From Promethearchaeota archaeon (GTDB taxonomy: Archaea > Asgardarchaeota > Lokiarchaeia > Sigyniarchaeales > SOKP01): 64,000 nt of DNA. Location: the NCBI GenBank assembly GCA_030603385.1, contig JAUVXW010000002.1, positions 62,001-126,000 of the forward strand. Reading direction: 5' to 3'. Numbering within the stretch: the first letter of the stretch is position 1; the number at the start of each line of letters is the position of its first letter. This document shows, piece by piece, positions 3,692-52,700 of the stretch. The position numbers and the translations under genes were made by a program. The notes beneath the pieces are model-generated. The model made no database searches, was not told the origin of the DNA, and was given only the letters and a program-made list of their open reading frames with translations.

Positions 3692-4327
3692 TCATTGTTT
3701 TGTAGTAATTTCTAGTATCATTTCAGCTACTCTATTGTTGAATTTTTCAACATCCGCGAAGTCTTCAACAGTTTCTCCACATGTTATAAAAAATTCATTT
3801 ATGGCTATTTTTCGAGTATCAAAAAATTCTTGAATTTGGGTTTTCATTTCATCAATTTTTTTATCCCTATTTCCTTCGAGCAAGTCGACCTTATTAATAC
3901 ACACATTTATTTTATCCGGGAAAAATCTTACATCGTTGAAGAATTCAAATTGACGGTCTAAATCCCTGTCAAGTGAAAAAACAGCCACTATTTGCGTAGC
4001 GATACGAGAGATTGTTATGATTCCCATCTTGACAACAGCGCGAGCTCTATCACCACCAGGAGCGAAGATCGTATGAGCTCTGTTGCTCGAGTCTTCTCGA
4101 AACACAATTCGGTTAGGATGGATTGTTTTTGTCTCTTTTTGATTAAGAGCATCTTCCTTATCTCCTCCAGGTACTGTTGCTTCACCTGAAAAATCAGCTT
4201 TAACTACAGAGCATTTTACTCCACCTTCAACTTTTTCAATATCACCCTTTTTCAAATACCGTACAAATAACCGAAGAATACTAGTTTTTCCAACACTAAC
4301 ATCACCTAACAATCCAATGTTTACGAT
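3692..4327 (-). CDS. Ras-like small GTPase with altered G3 motif
   Basis: About 211 residues if translation starts at the ATC at 4327-4325, which gives VNIGLLGDVSVGKTS, a complete first beta strand and P-loop (G1). The first TTG would cut the strand off. GGTG ends 7 nt upstream. G4 is INKVD and a G5-like TCGE follows. The usual DxxG (G3) is replaced by FAPGGDR, so the catalytic/Mg-coordinating aspartate pattern is unusual; COG2229-type archaeal GTPases are the closest family I can name. The start overlaps the stop of the upstream 272-residue gene, so the two are cotranscribed and probably act together. A regulatory switch role is inferred only. Confidence 0.8.
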   Translation of the reverse strand: MVNIGLLGDVSVGKTSILRLFVRYLKKGDIEKVEGGVKCSVVKADFSGEATVPGGDKEDALNQKETKTIHPNRIVFREDSSNRAHTIFAPGGDRARAVVKMGIITISRIATQIVAVFSLDRDLDRQFEFFNDVRFFPDKINVCINKVDLLEGNRDKKIDEMKTQIQEFFDTRKIAINEFFITCGETVEDFADVEKFNNRVAEMILEITTKQ

Positions 4328-12507: not shown

Positions 12508-13263
12508 TTAAAATATTTTTGGAAAGATTAATTTAGTATTTTCATAGATTTGATTTTCCAAATCATCAGGGGGAATGTCTTTAAATTTTGAAATTGTGTT
12601 TAAAACATCTCTAATCATTGCAGGAGTTCCATCTTTTCCTGAATATTTAACAGGTCCATCGCTTTCAAGCAAGAGATGTTCTACATCAACTCTTAAAACT
12701 GTTTTTTTCACTGCAGGAGAATAACTAATTGCTGGAGTAATTGAGAAAAAGTATCCTCTATCTATTCCTAAATTTAAAAATTCTTCTGGTCCTGAATACC
12801 AATGAATATTAACATAAGGTATATTAAATGAAGGGAGCATATCAAATACTAATTTTTCAGCTCCCTTTGTGTGGAGATTCACAGGTAATTCTAACTCTTG
12901 AGCTAACGATAACATTTTTTCAAAAATATTTGTTTGAAGTGGATAAAACACCTTTTCTTTTATAAAATGATGATCTAATCCTATTTCACCAATAGAACAT
13001 ATATTTTCTTTATTTTCTCTAATTGTTTTAATGACAGAATCTAGTTGATTTTCAATATCCTTATTCATTCTTACTTCTTCAGGGTGAATACCTAAAGCAG
13101 GATAAATTTCTTTATGTCTCTCTGAAATTTCTAATACTCTTTCAATGCTAACAGCACTCATTCCAACAGCAATAATCTTTTCTACCCCTACACTTTTAGC
13201 GTCCTTAATTACTTGTTCTAACGCTAAGTAAAGATTCGCATGACAATGAACATCAATTAGGAT
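12508..13263 (-). CDS. TatD-family metal-dependent hydrolase
   Basis: 251 residues if begun at the ATC at 13263, giving LIDVHCHANL, the classical TatD N-terminus with the metal-binding HCH. GGTG (13273-13270) lies 6 nt upstream of this ATC; the alternative GTG at 13272 falls inside that ribosome site. Further metal ligands: GEIGLDHH, NLHTKG, NIHWYSG and ESDGP. TatD proteins are 3'-5' DNA exonucleases or related phosphoesterases. Length and motif spacing are normal. Convergent with thyA, 11 bp apart. Confidence 0.88.
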   Translation of the reverse strand: MLIDVHCHANLYLALEQVIKDAKSVGVEKIIAVGMSAVSIERVLEISERHKEIYPALGIHPEEVRMNKDIENQLDSVIKTIRENKENICSIGEIGLDHHFIKEKVFYPLQTNIFEKMLSLAQELELPVNLHTKGAEKLVFDMLPSFNIPYVNIHWYSGPEEFLNLGIDRGYFFSITPAISYSPAVKKTVLRVDVEHLLLESDGPVKYSGKDGTPAMIRDVLNTISKFKDIPPDDLENQIYENTKLIFPKIF

Positions 13264-18929: not shown

Positions 18930-19547
18930 CTAATTGTTTATATCTAAAATTATATTTACAATTCGGTTAATATATTTACTCTTTTGAATCTTACAAATGT
19001 GAGCAACCTTTCTATAATTAAAAGACTCTGCTAATGTATCTAGATAGGAAAGATTATATAAAATTGAGACGTTGTCATTATTCTTCATGAAAAGCATATC
19101 TAATTCTCGCTGAATTTTGTTGTCGCTAATCTTCTTCTTTTTTTTTACCCTTTTATTAATCTCAGTAAGAGCATCATCAAAGTCAATATCCCGTATACTT
19201 GAGATAAGAGAATTCAGCACTATAGCATATAAAACAACGATATCAATGTTATCCGTGTCCTTTAAATTGTGGAATTTGAGTTGTAGATCTTGGTAAATTT
19301 CATTGATATAATTCTCATCTATACCCTTAATTTTTTTGAAGAGATTTAAGAATTGTAGATATTTACCATCGAGAAATAAGTGCAGATTACGATTAAACAG
19401 ATCTTTAAATTTTCTTATAATTTGCCCCGAATTACTTATTTTTACAGAAACTTCAGGTGTTCTGCCAATAATTATATCCTGACCATCTTTGTAAAACTGT
19501 TGATTAATTAAATTATTCGTCGCATCATATAGCTGTTCCAAAATCAT
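18930..19547 (-). CDS. hypothetical protein, possibly Roadblock-like N-terminus
   Basis: 205 residues, ATG start. It begins ILEQLYDATNNLINQQFY and then is mostly helical with a lysine-rich stretch (RVKKKKKISDNK). No diagnostic motif. The LYDATNNLINQ...IIIGRT...SGQIIRKF pattern could be a helix-strand start of a sensor-type domain but this is weak. Convergent with the amidohydrolase gene, 13 bp apart. Confidence 0.55.
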   Translation of the reverse strand: MILEQLYDATNNLINQQFYKDGQDIIIGRTPEVSVKISNSGQIIRKFKDLFNRNLHLFLDGKYLQFLNLFKKIKGIDENYINEIYQDLQLKFHNLKDTDNIDIVVLYAIVLNSLISSIRDIDFDDALTEINKRVKKKKKISDNKIQRELDMLFMKNNDNVSILYNLSYLDTLAESFNYRKVAHICKIQKSKYINRIVNIILDINN

Positions 19548-19991
19548 TCCGATCGCAAATCACCGATAAATAAAATTTTATGTCTGTTCTTAATACAGTT
19601 AGTAAAAATACAATGATTTAATTTTTTGCACTTTTACCTAATTCTTTTCTATTAGTGCTATTAAGGCTTAATAATATAAGAATAATATATTAATGAACTC
19701 CAATTTTTACTAATCGTATCCATAATTTCTAGCAGAAAATGGAAAATGAAATAATGAATCTGTTTATTCAATTTTTTAATCTTGTATAAATGGCTATAGA
19801 TAATTTTTTTTAAAGATGTGCTTTAATATGTTCTAAAAAACATGGAAAAAGAAATATAACCTTTTTATATCATTGTAACCTTTTAATATTGTTATTTTAA
19901 GAAAATATTCAATAAATAACATAATAAAATTATTTACTTTAATAATTTTCAAAATAAAAGAGTAAAATTATATAAAAAGGTTGAAAATAAA
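19548..19991. repeat. AT-rich intergenic region with AACCTTTT direct and inverted repeats
   Basis: The 444 bp upstream of the SCP2 gene hold no coding frame I can support. AACCTTTTTATAT at 19858-19870 is repeated imperfectly at 19877-19889 and occurs as a perfect 13-bp inverted copy at 19970-19982, the latter forming the GGTTGA ribosome-site region of the SCP2 gene. This looks like a regulatory region; whether the copies bind a protein or pair in RNA is unknown. Confidence 0.5.
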
Positions 19992-21411: not shown

Positions 21412-21513
21412 GGGCCTGTAATCTAGCCTGGATAGGGTGCCCGGCTTCGGATTTCTCTGAAAGAAGAAAAAGAAGAAACTGGGATGTCGCAGGTTCGAAT
21501 CCTGCCTGGCCCA
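21412..21513 (+). tRNA. tRNA-Arg(TCG) with canonical anticodon-loop intron
   Basis: Acceptor GGGCCTG/CTGGCCC with one T-T mismatch at 6-67, D-arm ATCT/GGGT, anticodon stem CCCGG/CTGGG, loop C-T-TCG-G with an intron of about 27 nt (purine-rich, starting ATTTCTCTGAAAG) at position 37/38, T-arm GCAGG-TTCGAAT-CCTGC and discriminator A. The intron sits at the standard archaeal position. CCA is not encoded. Confidence 0.9.
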
Positions 21514-21534: not shown

Positions 21535-22968
21535 TTAATATAACCTAATAGTGAAGGTAGAGCCTTTATTTCTTCCTTCAGACTCTACAAGTATTTGACC
21601 TCCATGTAGTTCTACAATTTCTTTTGAAATGTATAACCCTAGACCTGATCCTTCAATATCTACGCCTAAATCCATCCCGTATCTTTCCATTTTTCCAAAT
21701 TTCTCAAATAAAAGCTCTTTTTCTTTTTCGGTTATTCCAACACCTTTATCTTTTATTTGTATATCTATGTAATCATGATTTTCGACGAGGTTGACATAAA
21801 TTTTTCCGCTTATTGGTGTATTTTTCATAGCATTTGATAGAAGATTGGTAATTACTTGTTGAAGACGAATTTTATCTACATTAAATTCCAACTCATCCGG
21901 GAGATTTAAGTTCACAATAAGTTTACGACTATCCAATAAGTAACTCATTTCTTCAACACACTCTTTAGTAATTTTAACGAGATCATCCATCTTAATATTT
22001 AGTTCTAATTTACCAGATTCGATCCTTGAAGCATCTATTAAGTTTTCGACTAACTTTTTTAACCTTAAAGCACCCCTATGAAAAATCTCAATAAATTTTA
22101 ACACATCTTCATCAATTTTTCCATCAAAATGCTTTAAAAGAATTTGAGAAGCACCATATATGGAAGTTAATGGTGTTTTCAACTCATGGGATACTCTAGT
22201 AATAATGTCTTTTCTCATTTTATTAAGCTCTACTAATTTACGATTTTCTTCGAGGACGAGTCTTTCTACTTCTTTTTTTTCAGTGATGTCTAATGTAGCA
22301 ATCAAATTTGCTATTTTATCCTCAAAAGGAATAGTCTTAGAAATAATCTCCAGCCAAATAACTTCCCCTGTTTTTTTAGTGGCTCTAAACTGTATATCCG
22401 CTAAAATATCATTTTTTCCATAATATATATTTTCTGCGGTCTCCATAATCCTTTCTCTATCTTCTGGATGCATGAGTTTTAAAAATTCTTTAGATTTCCA
22501 TTTTAGAATCTCTTTAGGAGTATAACCTAAAGTATCAGAAAATTGTTGGTTAACATATTTGAATTTAAAATCTTCTAAAATTGCGATACCTATGAATGAC
22601 TGTTCTGTAATAGTTCTAAATTTATCTTCAGACTCAGAAATTTTTAACGTAGCAAGTCTTTGTTTAGTAATATCGTTTCCCACAGATAATATTCCAACTA
22701 AATTTCCTTTATCATCTTTTATTGCTTTATTTGTCCATGATATCCATACTTTCTTTCCATATTTTGTAATATTTTCATTTACATTATTCTTATATATTTC
22801 AGGATCTTTACAGATATCTTCCATTAATTTTTCTAAATCACGACCAGTAGTTTCCGTTTTAGGGACGATGGTACCTATAACATGTTCATAAGTTAGGTAC
22901 TTTGGCAGAAGAATTAAAAAATTCTTTAAAGGCTGAGGAGTAAACACTAATATAAGAGCTAATACCAA
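21535..22968 (-). CDS. PAS-domain sensor histidine kinase
   Basis: 477 residues from TTG (two stops lie just upstream). One N-terminal hydrophobic segment (about 2-25) may be a membrane anchor. A PAS-like domain (about 30-105, ending NLVGILSVGNDIT) and a second PAS (about 115-225, RTITEQSFIGIAIL ... NLIATLDITEKK) precede HisKA with the phosphoacceptor in SHELKTPLTS (about 262) and HATPase with NLLSNAMKNTP, IKDKGVGI, FEKFGKM and GSGLGLYISKEIV. The first PAS lacks its early strands, so it is short or divergent. It is divergent from the RHH-HisKA-receiver gene, the probable partner. Confidence 0.92.
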   Translation of the reverse strand: MVLALILVFTPQPLKNFLILLPKYLTYEHVIGTIVPKTETTGRDLEKLMEDICKDPEIYKNNVNENITKYGKKVWISWTNKAIKDDKGNLVGILSVGNDITKQRLATLKISESEDKFRTITEQSFIGIAILEDFKFKYVNQQFSDTLGYTPKEILKWKSKEFLKLMHPEDRERIMETAENIYYGKNDILADIQFRATKKTGEVIWLEIISKTIPFEDKIANLIATLDITEKKEVERLVLEENRKLVELNKMRKDIITRVSHELKTPLTSIYGASQILLKHFDGKIDEDVLKFIEIFHRGALRLKKLVENLIDASRIESGKLELNIKMDDLVKITKECVEEMSYLLDSRKLIVNLNLPDELEFNVDKIRLQQVITNLLSNAMKNTPISGKIYVNLVENHDYIDIQIKDKGVGITEKEKELLFEKFGKMERYGMDLGVDIEGSGLGLYISKEIVELHGGQILVESEGRNKGSTFTIRLY

Positions 22969-23105
22969 ATAATTTTATTAAATTTCTATTTTCTTTTTGT
23001 TTTTATTTTATCTTATTTTGATTTGTATCACGCAAACCCTAAACCATTCTGAATTTCTTGGGTTTATCTTTTTATAGATAAGCTCTTTTTTTTATTTAAT
23101 CTTAA

Positions 23106-23158
23106 GTGTAAAAAAGTATTTATATGTGTAAAATAGTATAAATATGTAAAAAATGAAC
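23106..23158. promoter_or_regulatory. 20-bp direct repeats in the divergent kinase/RHH-regulator promoter
   Basis: GTGTAAAAAAGTATTTATAT at 23106-23125 is followed without a gap by GTGTAAAATAGTATAAATAT at 23126-23145, and then by a partial third copy beginning GTAAAAAATG at 23146. The repeats overlap TATA-like sequence. Exact 20-bp periodicity puts copies two helical turns apart on the same face, as expected for an operator bound cooperatively by ribbon-helix-helix dimers. Confidence 0.6.
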
Positions 23159-23208
23159 AATTATTCATTAATTAATTTAATTGCACTCATTTATTGAAGG
23201 TGTAGAAC

Positions 23209-23949
23209 ATAACCGATTATAACCAGGATAAAGAAAGAATTTCTTTATATGTATCTAAAGATATTAAAGAAGAATGGCAAACTTTTGCTAAAAATAATGA
23301 TTATTCCACTTTATCGAAACTGATAAGGGAAGCTTTAAGATTCTTTATTCAATGTAGAGGATTAGATCTTTCAACTCTTTCTCATGATTTAAAAGAACCT
23401 TTAACCTCAATTAAAGGGTATTTACAATTAATTATTGAAACATATGGAAAATCAATAGAAAGTAATGTAATATCTACATTGAAAAATGTACTGAACCAAT
23501 GTTTGATCTTAGAGAATAAAATCGTAGAATATTTGGATAAATTTGAGACTGAAATGGAAGAAGAGAGTATAAATCAAAAGAGTGAATATGATATTCTTTT
23601 AGTGGAAGATGACCAGGAGACTGTTAACTTACTGACGAGTTATTTCGAGTCAATAAATATAATATGCAAGGGTGTTTTAAGTGGCTTTAAAGGGCTAAAA
23701 GAACTAAAAAGATATGCACCAAAACTGATTTTACTTGACATTATTCTTCCAGATATCAATGGATATGAGATATTAAAGAGAATAAGAGCAGAAGAAAAAT
23801 TAAAAGACATTCCTGTATTTTTTCTTACAGCTATACCAAGTGTAGAAGTAGAGAAAAAGTCATTAGATTTAGGAGCTACAGGTTCAATTTTAAAGCCTTT
23901 TAATTTAACTGATTTTGATGTGATTTATAAGTATTTGGAAAAAAAATAG
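23209..23949 (+). CDS. RHH DNA-binding-HisKA-receiver fusion regulator (ATA start)
   Basis: 246 residues when read from ATA 23209, 6 nt after GAAGGTG; no ATG/GTG/TTG occurs before 23479. Residues 8-48 match ribbon-helix-helix proteins (RISLYVSKDIKEEWQTF, YSTLSKLIREALRFFI). Residues 54-115 are a HisKA/DHp helix pair with the H-box LSHDLKEPLTSIKGYLQLI (His59) but no HATPase. Residues 125-246 are a receiver domain: LLVEDD, phosphoacceptor LILLDIILPD (Asp177), FFLTA and LKPF (Lys229). A phosphorelay to DNA within one chain is implied. The neighbouring PAS kinase, transcribed away from it, probably supplies the catalytic domain. Confidence 0.85.
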   Translation: MTDYNQDKERISLYVSKDIKEEWQTFAKNNDYSTLSKLIREALRFFIQCRGLDLSTLSHDLKEPLTSIKGYLQLIIETYGKSIESNVISTLKNVLNQCLILENKIVEYLDKFETEMEEESINQKSEYDILLVEDDQETVNLLTSYFESINIICKGVLSGFKGLKELKRYAPKLILLDIILPDINGYEILKRIRAEEKLKDIPVFFLTAIPSVEVEKKSLDLGATGSILKPFNLTDFDVIYKYLEKK

Positions 23950-29444: not shown

Positions 29445-29987
29445 ATATCATTTGATTTATCTGCATTTAAATTATTAATTAAGAAGATTTTTCCACCAAA
29501 AAAAAGCGTTTTCACTGTAGATACTACAGGAGATGGAAAAGGAGATTCTATACAAATAAAAGTAATTAATCTACTATTTCCATTCGTAGTTCCTGAGAAT
29601 ATTGAGTTAGGAGATTTTGATTTAAAGAGCTTTGATGTACAAAATTTTGATATTTCGGAATATGTAACATTGTTCATAGATGATAGACCGATTAACGTTT
29701 CAAAAGATTCTTTCAACTTTGAAACAATAAAGGATCGATTCTTAATTTATCATAAGGGAGAATCATTTAAACTAAGTGATATCCTTGAAGGTAAATTTAG
29801 TGGAAGAACTATAGCCTTAGGTGATAGTATTAGTATTTTAATTAAATTAGATACAGAAACCCTAAACACATTAACTGAAGGAAAACACATTTTCAAGATT
29901 GATAGTGAATTCGTCTCGAACCTTATAATTAATTTTGAATTGGATAAAACTAATATGAATCTAAAGTTTGATCCAAAAAACCCATAA
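29445..29987 (+). CDS. beta-rich protein of unknown function (probable ATA start)
   Basis: About 180 residues if read from ATA 29445, after GGGTTGATG; the frame is open from the stop at 29439-29441. The first TTG at 29670 would remove about 75 residues. The visible protein alternates short strands (FTVDTTGDGKGDSIQIKVIN, IELGDFDLKSFDVQNFDISEYVTLFIDD, LGDSISILIKLDTETLNTLTEGKHIFKI), like an immunoglobulin-like or beta-sandwich fold. The DTTGDGKGDS segment resembles an EF-hand-type calcium loop. Not recognised. It may be in one transcript with the gene at 30094. Confidence 0.55.
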   Translation: MSFDLSAFKLLIKKIFPPKKSVFTVDTTGDGKGDSIQIKVINLLFPFVVPENIELGDFDLKSFDVQNFDISEYVTLFIDDRPINVSKDSFNFETIKDRFLIYHKGESFKLSDILEGKFSGRTIALGDSISILIKLDTETLNTLTEGKHIFKIDSEFVSNLIINFELDKTNMNLKFDPKNP

Positions 29988-34718: not shown

Positions 34719-35144
34719 ATTTCAATATATGTCGTTCAACCAGAAAAACTAGTTGAAGCTATTGCAGAAAAGTTAAAGGAATTTCCCGAAATTTCACCAC
34801 CTAAGGGTTCAGAATTTTGGAAGACAGCGTTTTTTAAAGAATTAGCTCCTAGTGATTCAGAAAATTTCTGGTATATCCGATGCGCCTCTTTGCTTAGAAA
34901 ATTGAAGAAATTTGGACCTATTGGAGTTAGTAAACTTCGAAAATTTTATGGAGGAAAAAATAGAAAAGGTAAAGGTTTACATCATTCTGCTAGAGGTAGT
35001 GGAAAAATAATAAGAGTAGCACTTCAACAGCTTGAAAAAGCAAACTTAATTAAAATGAAAGAAAAAAAAGGAAGAGTTCTTTCTTCTGAAGGAACTAGTC
35101 TATTGGAACGAACGGCATATGTGATTATGAGAAGTAAAGATTAA
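34719..35144 (+). CDS. rps19e: ribosomal protein S19e (ATT start)
   Basis: 141 residues from ATT 34719, 7 nt after GGTG (34708-34711). The 57 codons before the first ATG/TTG-type start at 34890 encode the conserved S19e N-terminus (VVQPEKLVEAIAEKLKEF, PPKGSEFWKTAFFKEL, APSDSENFWYIRCASLLRKL), so the late start would delete 40% of the protein. The C-terminal part KFYGGKNRKGKGLHHSARGSG and VRVALQQLE-type helix are standard. No ATG, GTG or TTG occurs between the upstream stop and 34890 at a usable place. First gene of the S19e-PDCD5-L39e-L31e-aIF6-LX operon. Confidence 0.95.
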   Translation: MSIYVVQPEKLVEAIAEKLKEFPEISPPKGSEFWKTAFFKELAPSDSENFWYIRCASLLRKLKKFGPIGVSKLRKFYGGKNRKGKGLHHSARGSGKIIRVALQQLEKANLIKMKEKKGRVLSSEGTSLLERTAYVIMRSKD

Positions 35145-49993: not shown

Positions 49994-50962
49994 ATTTCAA
50001 GTTGGAGAGAATTAAAACAAGAATCCGATGAAGTTTTGAGTATACAGACTAATCTGTGTACAGAATGCGGGAACACTATATTTTTTGATGAAAATAGAGG
50101 TTTATTAGTTTGTGAAGAATGCGGTTTAGTACATTCTGAGAAACATATTGATAGAGGTCCGGAATGGAGGGCTTTTAATGCAGATCAAAAAAAGAAGAGA
50201 ACTAGAACTGGTGCACCTATGACATATATGATACATGATAAGGGTCTTAGTACTATGATAGACTGGAGAAATAGAGATATTTTTGGTAAGGAAATACCTG
50301 CTAAATTGAGAGGTCAAATATATAGACTTCGAAAGTGGCAAAGTCGTATCAGAGTTTCTGATGCTACTGAGAGAAACCTTACATTTGCACTAAGTGAACT
50401 TGATAGAATGGCTTCAAACTTAGAGCTTCAAAAAAATTTAAGAGAATGTGCTGCAAAAATTTACCGTGATGCTGTTGAGGCTCATCTTATTCGCGGTAGA
50501 AGCATTGAGGGGGTGGCCGCTGCTAGTTTATATGCTGCATGTAGAATGTTTAAAGTACCACGTACATTAAACGAGATTGCTGAAGTAGCTCGTGTAGATA
50601 AAAAGGAGATCAGCAGATCTTTTCGATTTATTTCGAATGAACTAGAATTAAACTTAAACCCAACTAAACCAATCGATTTTCTTACTAGATTCATTTCAGA
50701 GTTAAAACTAACATCTAACTGCCAAAAAATGGCAAAAGCGATTATTAGAATGGCAGAAAGACGAGGATTAACTTCAGGAAGAGGTCCTACAGGAGTATGT
50801 GCAGCTGCAATTTATGCTTCAAGTATTTTATCAAATGAACGTAGAACTCAGAGAAGTATTGCTCGAGTTAGTTGTGTGACCGAAGTTACAGTCCGAAATC
50901 GTTTTAGTGAACTTGTAGAGAATCTAAATCTTGGCATATCTTTAAAGAGGAATAATAAATAA
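49994..50962 (+). CDS. tfb: transcription initiation factor TFB (ATT start)
   Basis: 322 residues from ATT 49994, 6 nt after GAAGGTG (49981-49987). Residues about 21-44 are the zinc ribbon ([24 protein letters not shown]), the B-finger covers [27 protein letters not shown], and two cyclin-like repeats follow ([10 protein letters not shown] ... [22 protein letters not shown] and [24 protein letters not shown]). Starting at the first TTG (50036) would leave 14 fewer residues and misplace the SD. TFB recruits RNA polymerase to TBP-bound promoters. Confidence 0.96.
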
Positions 50963-52172: not shown

Positions 52173-52253
52173 CCCAATAATCTAATAAACTTATGGTGAG
52201 TCGTCATTCACTTAGTAATAACTTACTTTAACCAAATATTAGGACCAAGTGTT

Positions 52254-52700
52254 TTGTTATCTTATCCTGATGAATTGTTAGAGGAAAATCTCATAAATAA
52301 ATTAAAAAAGTTTTTTGATTTAGAAATTGATGAGACCTTCTTCGAAATAATCCTTATTACTAAGAAAAAGAAAATTATCAATTTTCATTTCGAAATTCCG
52401 TCTAAGTGGGCACGTGGGGAAAAGGAGGATGCCATGCTCTCCCTAATAATAAAGAAAGAATATGAAAGTTCTCAATTTTATGCATTTCTAGTAGATTCAT
52501 CGTATAAAATCTTAAAAACTGAAAATGTGTACAAAGCTTTTTATAAAGATGATGAATTTCACGATAATGATATTGAAATTGATATGACGTATGAAATAAT
52601 AAGAAAAATTCTTTTTAACTGTGTATCAAGTCTTATATTACGGATAGAAGATAAAATTAAAGGAGTAGATAAAAAAGAACCGTTTCCTTTCTCTTCGTAA
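52254..52700 (+). CDS. hypothetical protein in the Roadblock cluster
   Basis: 148 residues, TTG start. Strands and helices alternate (FFEIILITKKKKIINFHFEI, EYESSQFYAFLVDSSYKILKT), compatible with a divergent longin-like fold, but with no clear motif. An in-frame ATA upstream is possible. Location behind two Roadblock genes suggests a common pathway. Directly followed by the candidate RNA region. Confidence 0.5.
   Translation: MLSYPDELLEENLINKLKKFFDLEIDETFFEIILITKKKKIINFHFEIPSKWARGEKEDAMLSLIIKKEYESSQFYAFLVDSSYKILKTENVYKAFYKDDEFHDNDIEIDMTYEIIRKILFNCVSSLILRIEDKIKGVDKKEPFPFSS

Follow-up and report, generated by a model that had tools for sequence, protein, structure and literature searches.

Introduction

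DNA-binding response regulators are rare in archaea (PMC5847659). The closest described proteins, the Arc-type ribbon-helix-helix (RHH)-HisKA-receiver proteins of Lokiarchaeum GC14_75, were reported by Galperin et al. 2018 in one sentence, without analysis of start codon, promoter or neighbourhood (PMC5847659). Two other groups resemble them in part. LtrR-type archaeal regulators also place the DNA-binding domain before the receiver, but that domain is a helix-turn-helix and they have no HisKA domain (PMC5847659). HisKA-without-HATPase proteins of Archaeoglobi and Methanomicrobia have a HisKA-like domain with a conserved His and no ATPase, but these have PAS/GAF sensors and a C-terminal HisKA domain (PMC5847659).

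Here, we analyze a regulator gene in a 64,000-nucleotide stretch of the genome of an uncultured Promethearchaeota archaeon (the window), in which an RHH domain and a receiver flank the HisKA domain. An earlier note on this DNA knew of no described system with this order; the Lokiarchaeum report supersedes that claim, the domain order and the lineage being identical with four copies there and four here. We see no architectural difference from the GC14_75 proteins, and the likeness is one of architecture and lineage. NikR, the best structural match, similarly carries an N-terminal RHH domain under a C-terminal regulatory domain, which binds nickel and in whose place the regulator has a receiver.

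Lokiarchaea are related to the archaea from which eukaryotes arose. In Escherichia coli, infC and pcnB have AUU starts that are thought to limit or regulate expression; to our knowledge, AUU, AUC and AUA (AUH) starts are absent from textbooks for archaea. A 2020 review of archaeal initiation gives AUG, GUG and UUG as the archaeal start codons (PMC7531240), and among the open-access titles and abstracts listed in searches for unusual starts in Lokiarchaeal or Asgard genomes, none evidently described AUH starts. The architecture of the regulator is known though uncharacterised, and the real surprise is the start-codon pattern.

A regulator gene without an ordinary start codon

The gene and its parts are as follows.
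23197-23202, plus strand: Shine-Dalgarno sequence AAGGTG, 6 nt before ATA 23209 (sequence, orthologue spacing, slot statistics)
23209-23949, plus strand: RHH-HisKA-receiver regulator gene, start codon ATA at 23209-23211, stop TAG (open frame, homologues, dN/dS)
23236-23349, plus strand: RHH domain, residues 10-47 (RHH_1, NikR and ORF56 profiles, AlphaFold2 model, Foldseek)
23368-23571, plus strand: HisKA-like helix pair, residues 54-121, His59 at 23383-23385 (Pfam, AlphaFold2 helices, conserved His)
23593-23913, plus strand: receiver domain, residues 129-235, Asp177 at 23737-23739 and Lys229 at 23893-23895 (Pfam 5.5e-20, Foldseek)

The plus-strand frame 23206-23946 is open, with an in-frame TAG directly upstream at 23203-23205 and no ATG, GTG or TTG in frame from there until TTG 23479. 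With ordinary starts, only the receiver end is visible, as had been proposed, and the start codon hides the gene from annotation. Read from ATA 23209, the translation has 247 residues, and the numbering of His59, Asp177 and Lys229 given earlier is right when counted from this codon. On the whole protein, Pfam matched the receiver (5.5e-20), HisKA (2.3e-6) and RHH_1 (0.053); profiles, AlphaFold2/Foldseek and homologues bear out the three domains in one chain and in that order.

The window's own genome encodes three full-length paralogues with 48-53% identity (four copies including the regulator). Matches at E <1e-20, most of them full length, were found in 59 of the 97 genomes searched. In a phylum sample of 196 genomes, 43 had matches, and the full-length ones all came from two families within the order to which the window belongs. 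Named homologue records are nearly all from Lokiarchaeota, with two from Sigynarchaeota and one from a bin labelled Bathyarchaeota (L206), which probably reflects mis-binning or transfer. As far as sequence comparison can tell, the protein is real and its family specific to Lokiarchaeia.

Because the frame offers no ordinary start codon before TTG 23479, we considered that only the receiver is translated, from this TTG, and that the upstream RHH-HisKA part is a decayed remnant. We give this reading almost no credence. The frame is kept open in more than 100 homologues, a Shine-Dalgarno sequence and ATA are present upstream, and compared with the closest orthologue (in genome G003) the RHH part has a dN of 0.03 and a dS of 0.83 (dN/dS ~0.04), indicative of strong purifying selection. 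For the whole of segment 23209-23478, dN is 0.087 and dS 0.62 against the same orthologue, as expected of coding, constrained sequence. Selection and homology together thus rule out translation of the receiver alone, and none of the findings that the earlier note said would count against its reading was made: the segment is under purifying selection, the RHH part is present in homologues, and RHH models are matched. A frameshift from an upstream ATG, considered separately, is unneeded, as orthologues keep the AUH position with a varied third base.

RHH domain

When the N-terminus of the regulator was excised, its RHH_1 match improved to 0.0035, still below the curated cut-off. Among excised N-termini of 53 diverse relatives, 21 matched RHH_1 (best 9.5e-5), 22 a NikR-type model and 15 the ORF56 (CopG-like) model. 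A PDB sequence search with the RHH profile gave nothing significant, the best RHH protein being ORF56 (E=0.85), and the assignment therefore rests on family profiles and fold. Specifically, the AlphaFold2 model of the N-terminal part has a pLDDT of 90, and its best Foldseek matches in the PDB are mainly RHH proteins (NikR, ParD, CopG, Arc) with probabilities up to 1.00 and E-values that are weak because the domain is short. DSSP assigned no strand in this model, which is of the monomer only. Profiles and predicted fold together support membership of the N-terminus in the RHH superfamily.

HisKA and receiver domains

The Pfam HisKA match covers residues 54-83, about the first half of the domain only, and AlphaFold2 predicts helices at residues 54-82 and 85-121, so that the H-box His lies in an antiparallel helix hairpin as in HisKA (DHp) domains. 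His59 is kept in 119 of the 124 family members; Tyr replaces it in the other five (L059, L062, L070, L093, L121). HATPase_c, found in histidine kinases, had no Pfam match in the regulator, in agreement with the ATPase-free protein described earlier.

In kinases the residue after His is acidic, and phosphatase-type domains have Thr or Asn at H+4. Across the 124 members H+1 is Ala in 68, Asp in 22 and Thr in 18, and H+4 is Glu in 119. Because the H+1 acid is not conserved and H+4 is Glu, the HisKA domain is unlikely to act as a kinase and probably has no phosphatase activity, the latter being argued against less surely. The same residues, the H+1 acid being needed for autokinase activity, and the Tyr in five members are also what would be expected if the HisKA part were a dimerisation and signal-coupling bundle only, its His never phosphorylated and the receiver the sole phosphoacceptor. 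We regard this as a serious alternative at somewhat less than even odds, given that 119 of 124 members retain the His while the neighbouring catalytic position drifts. The conservation of His59 does not prove a role in a phosphorelay, but such a role may exist.

The receiver has the receiver fold, the acidic pair and the full set of response-regulator residues: across the family, Asp and Lys are each present in 124/124 members and the Thr/Ser position is Thr in 121 and Ser in 3. Only receivers were among the best 50 Foldseek matches of the whole-protein model. As in the RHH part, dN is low and dS high in the receiver.

A truncated kinase and a lost chemoreceptor

Two gene remnants lie upstream of the regulator.
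21535-22886, minus strand: 5'-truncated PAS-HisKA-HATPase kinase, matching the C-terminal part of the G003 kinase (1029 aa) with 79% identity
22887-22943, plus strand: remnant of a chemoreceptor C-terminus, last 18 codons, HKLGTLAEELKNSLKAEE-stop (compared with the intact G003 gene, L042:4221-5051)

The listed kinase ORF 21535-22968 runs to TTG 22968, but its first ~27 codons are not kinase sequence; they are antisense to the chemoreceptor remnant and the spacer. In G003, the order is the kinase (1029 aa) followed divergently by a membrane protein, the chemoreceptor and the regulator. The window kinase starts at about residue 575 of the G003 kinase and is joined directly to the chemoreceptor remnant, with ~600 codons missing, and the lost parts of both genes are not found elsewhere in the own genome at orthologue-level identity. 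The membrane protein gene is likewise absent from this locus in the window. Apparently, a ~3.4 kb deletion removed most of the kinase and the chemoreceptor; we read the junction as a deletion scar, an assembly error being less likely. In G013 the kinase orthologue (L043 / L269-L270) consists of two adjacent open frames with 266 and 385 codons, which also hints at decay of this kinase in the group. A tRNA gene, probably intron-containing, at 21412-21513 (plus strand) was found by Rfam and missed by ARAGORN.

The earlier note had a divergent kinase sharing its promoter with the regulator. Synteny rules out the shared promoter, the kinase being a truncated remnant that in G003 is separated from the regulator by two genes. 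That the kinase at 21535-22968 phosphorylates the HisKA or receiver domain of the regulator is correspondingly improbable in our view. Its sequence preserves intact HisKA and HATPase domains, and the orthologous kinase adjoins on the opposite strand in G003 and G013, but the window kinase is short of ~600 N-terminal codons and has no start of its own, its 5' end runs antisense to another gene's remnant, two genes intervene in relatives, and the G012 regulator locus has neither kinase nor chemoreceptor. Because the chemoreceptor is gone and the kinase truncated in the own genome, no cognate kinase can be named.

About 17 paralogues have a histidine kinase gene as tail-to-tail neighbour, 8-97 bp away. 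For L107, L110, L112, L116, L121 and others, these kinases are often large and within 50 bp. Most members with a long N-terminus instead occur, mostly paired, at a housekeeping locus with TFB on one side and JAMM on the other. The own genome encodes CheW-domain proteins and therefore a chemoreceptor pathway exists.

A conserved promoter repeat block

Upstream of the regulator gene lie the following elements.
23103-23155, plus strand: putative promoter/operator block, two 20-bp copies and a partial third (tandem register, cross-species conservation)
23103-23122 and 23123-23142, plus strand: 20-bp repeat copies, 80% identical
23107, 23127 and 23145, plus strand: TGTA boxes
23119-23125, plus strand: TATA-like TTTATAT between the first two TGTA boxes, presumed to act as TATA box

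Of the repeats described earlier, the two 20-bp copies are real: their best tandem register has 17/20 matches, which 1 of 1000 shuffles reached, and they are conserved. The "partial third" copy amounts to a TGTA box spaced by 18 bp. The ~52-nt block is conserved in six genomes, those of five orthologues and one more distant homologue, with flanks that align poorly; in the five orthologues TGTA or near-TGTA boxes are spaced by 20 and 18 bp. Transcription would start near the third TGTA box.

In G003, G013 and G014, the operon next door, which encodes the membrane protein and the chemoreceptor, has a promoter of related layout. A mechanical pattern run over ~324 kb from the own and related genomes matched seven sites, of which three were regulator promoters, two were chemoreceptor promoters and two lay elsewhere; the promoter in G014, a third chemoreceptor promoter, is similar by eye. 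In the own genome, the exact triple repeat is found a single time. When up to 2 mismatches were allowed, searching the genome for the operator gave as many matches as the reversed control, and therefore we claim no regulon beyond the chemoreceptor operon.

Because similar blocks precede the chemoreceptor operon, autoregulation is suggested, and the simplest reading would be that the regulator controls both its own gene and that operon. Core promoter content could account for part of the conservation of the block. That the block is solely a core promoter (BRE, TATA and start region) and no operator for the regulator would agree with its TATA-like box and A-rich flanks and with the lack of genomic excess of the loose motif; we nevertheless consider this rather unlikely, as orthologues keep the TGTA boxes at 20 and 18 bp, chemoreceptor promoters carry similar boxes, and the pattern is otherwise nearly absent from ~324 kb.

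Proposed mechanism

Our working model builds on the domains, conserved residues, homologues, promoter block, selection and absent normal start found in the sequence. Overall, we favor with fair confidence that the protein is a DNA-binding response regulator of a Lokiarchaeia-specific family that works as follows. An N-terminal RHH dimer would bind the direct repeats that overlie the regulator's promoter and, in genomes that have it, those over the promoter of the adjacent chemoreceptor operon. The HisKA part in the middle, a four-helix bundle that has lost its ATPase, would hold the dimer together and may also act as a phosphohistidine relay site. A PAS histidine kinase would pass phosphate to the receiver and thereby switch DNA binding. 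Because the repeats overlie the TATA region, repression is the likelier output. We suggest that the family is a candidate for a main transcriptional output of two-component signalling in Lokiarchaeia, and the promoter block offers a ready binding assay for the regulator.

Probable AUH start codons in the regulator family

Because of the in-frame TAG at 23203 and the lack of NTG codons, only ATA 23209 remains, correctly spaced behind the Shine-Dalgarno sequence. No NTG codon stands between the in-frame stop and the conserved domain. In the five orthologues and one homologue, the corresponding starts are ATA, ATT, ATC, ATA, ATC and ATA, with a G-rich Shine-Dalgarno sequence at near-identical distance before them.

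In a first count of the best Shine-Dalgarno-supported starts, ATH was found in 95/124 members, but AT-rich DNA contains more ATH than NTG codons, and this biases the count. Therefore, the figure we rely on is from a slot test, in which a slot is an in-frame codon 6-8 nt behind a 5-nt GGTG-type Shine-Dalgarno sequence: ATH occupied 35/65 slots of the family, mostly at one spacing, against a background of 7.3% (p=6e-23), and ATG only 5/65. Under this strict test 65/124 members have no GGTG-type slot, and hence an AUH start in "most of the family" rests on the weaker best-start count. Nine members have no NTG codon whatsoever before the conserved core, and among close members ATG and ATT are swapped at one position (L081 and L085 versus L057 and L071). 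Start assignment is less certain for the long-N-terminus paralogues than for the short ones.

Based on these comparisons, translation of the regulator and of many relatives appears to begin at AUU, AUC or AUA rather than AUG, a family-wide pattern that the earlier note had not seen. Such initiation, AUA in the regulator, would rely on the well-placed GGTG Shine-Dalgarno sequence and probably keeps regulator levels low. An AUU start is shared with E. coli infC and pcnB; those are single bacterial genes, whereas the regulator family is multi-copy and archaeal, uses AUU, AUC and AUA, and has no known link to an initiation factor.

Probable AUH starts in other genes of the lineage

Comparison of window genes with their syntenic orthologues gave an ATG-anchored start column for 34 genes. 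In these columns the codon of the window is ATG in 27, TTG in 2 and ATH in 5, and among all 124 codons in the columns ATH occurs 8 times. The five window genes with ATH where orthologues carry ATG, and two further genes, are as follows.
34719-35144, plus strand: ribosomal protein eS19, ATT behind GGTG, most family orthologues ATG
3692-4327 (minus), 12508-13263 (minus), 52206-52700 (plus) and 29445-29987 (plus): small GTPase, TatD and two more genes, with ATC, ATC, ATT and ATA, respectively, where orthologues have ATG
49994-50962, plus strand: TFB (TFIIB) gene, ATT behind the same Shine-Dalgarno sequence in the window, G003 and G012
18930-19553, minus strand: gene in which ATC or ATA follows GGTG, both in the window and in two relatives

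AUH starts thus look lineage-wide but uncommon, and the rule in the regulator family. We think it likely that in Lokiarchaeales AUU, AUC and AUA are genuine starts at Shine-Dalgarno-led genes, sporadic in genes such as those for eS19 and TFB and the rule in the regulator family, where they would limit or regulate expression. If so, gene finders restricted to NTG mis-start or miss genes in Lokiarchaea, DNA-binding regulators included, and one could test directly how stringently Asgard ribosomes select their start codons.

Individual loci illustrate the pattern. At the eS19 start position, G027, G066 and G061 have no ATG either; in G066, a single-contig genome in which the regulator is absent, the eS19 frame contains no ATG ahead of its conserved part. 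For the gene at 18930-19553 the relative G012 has no nearby ATG. The leader of the small GTPase gene differs from that of G003 by few bases, among them the change from ATG to ATC.
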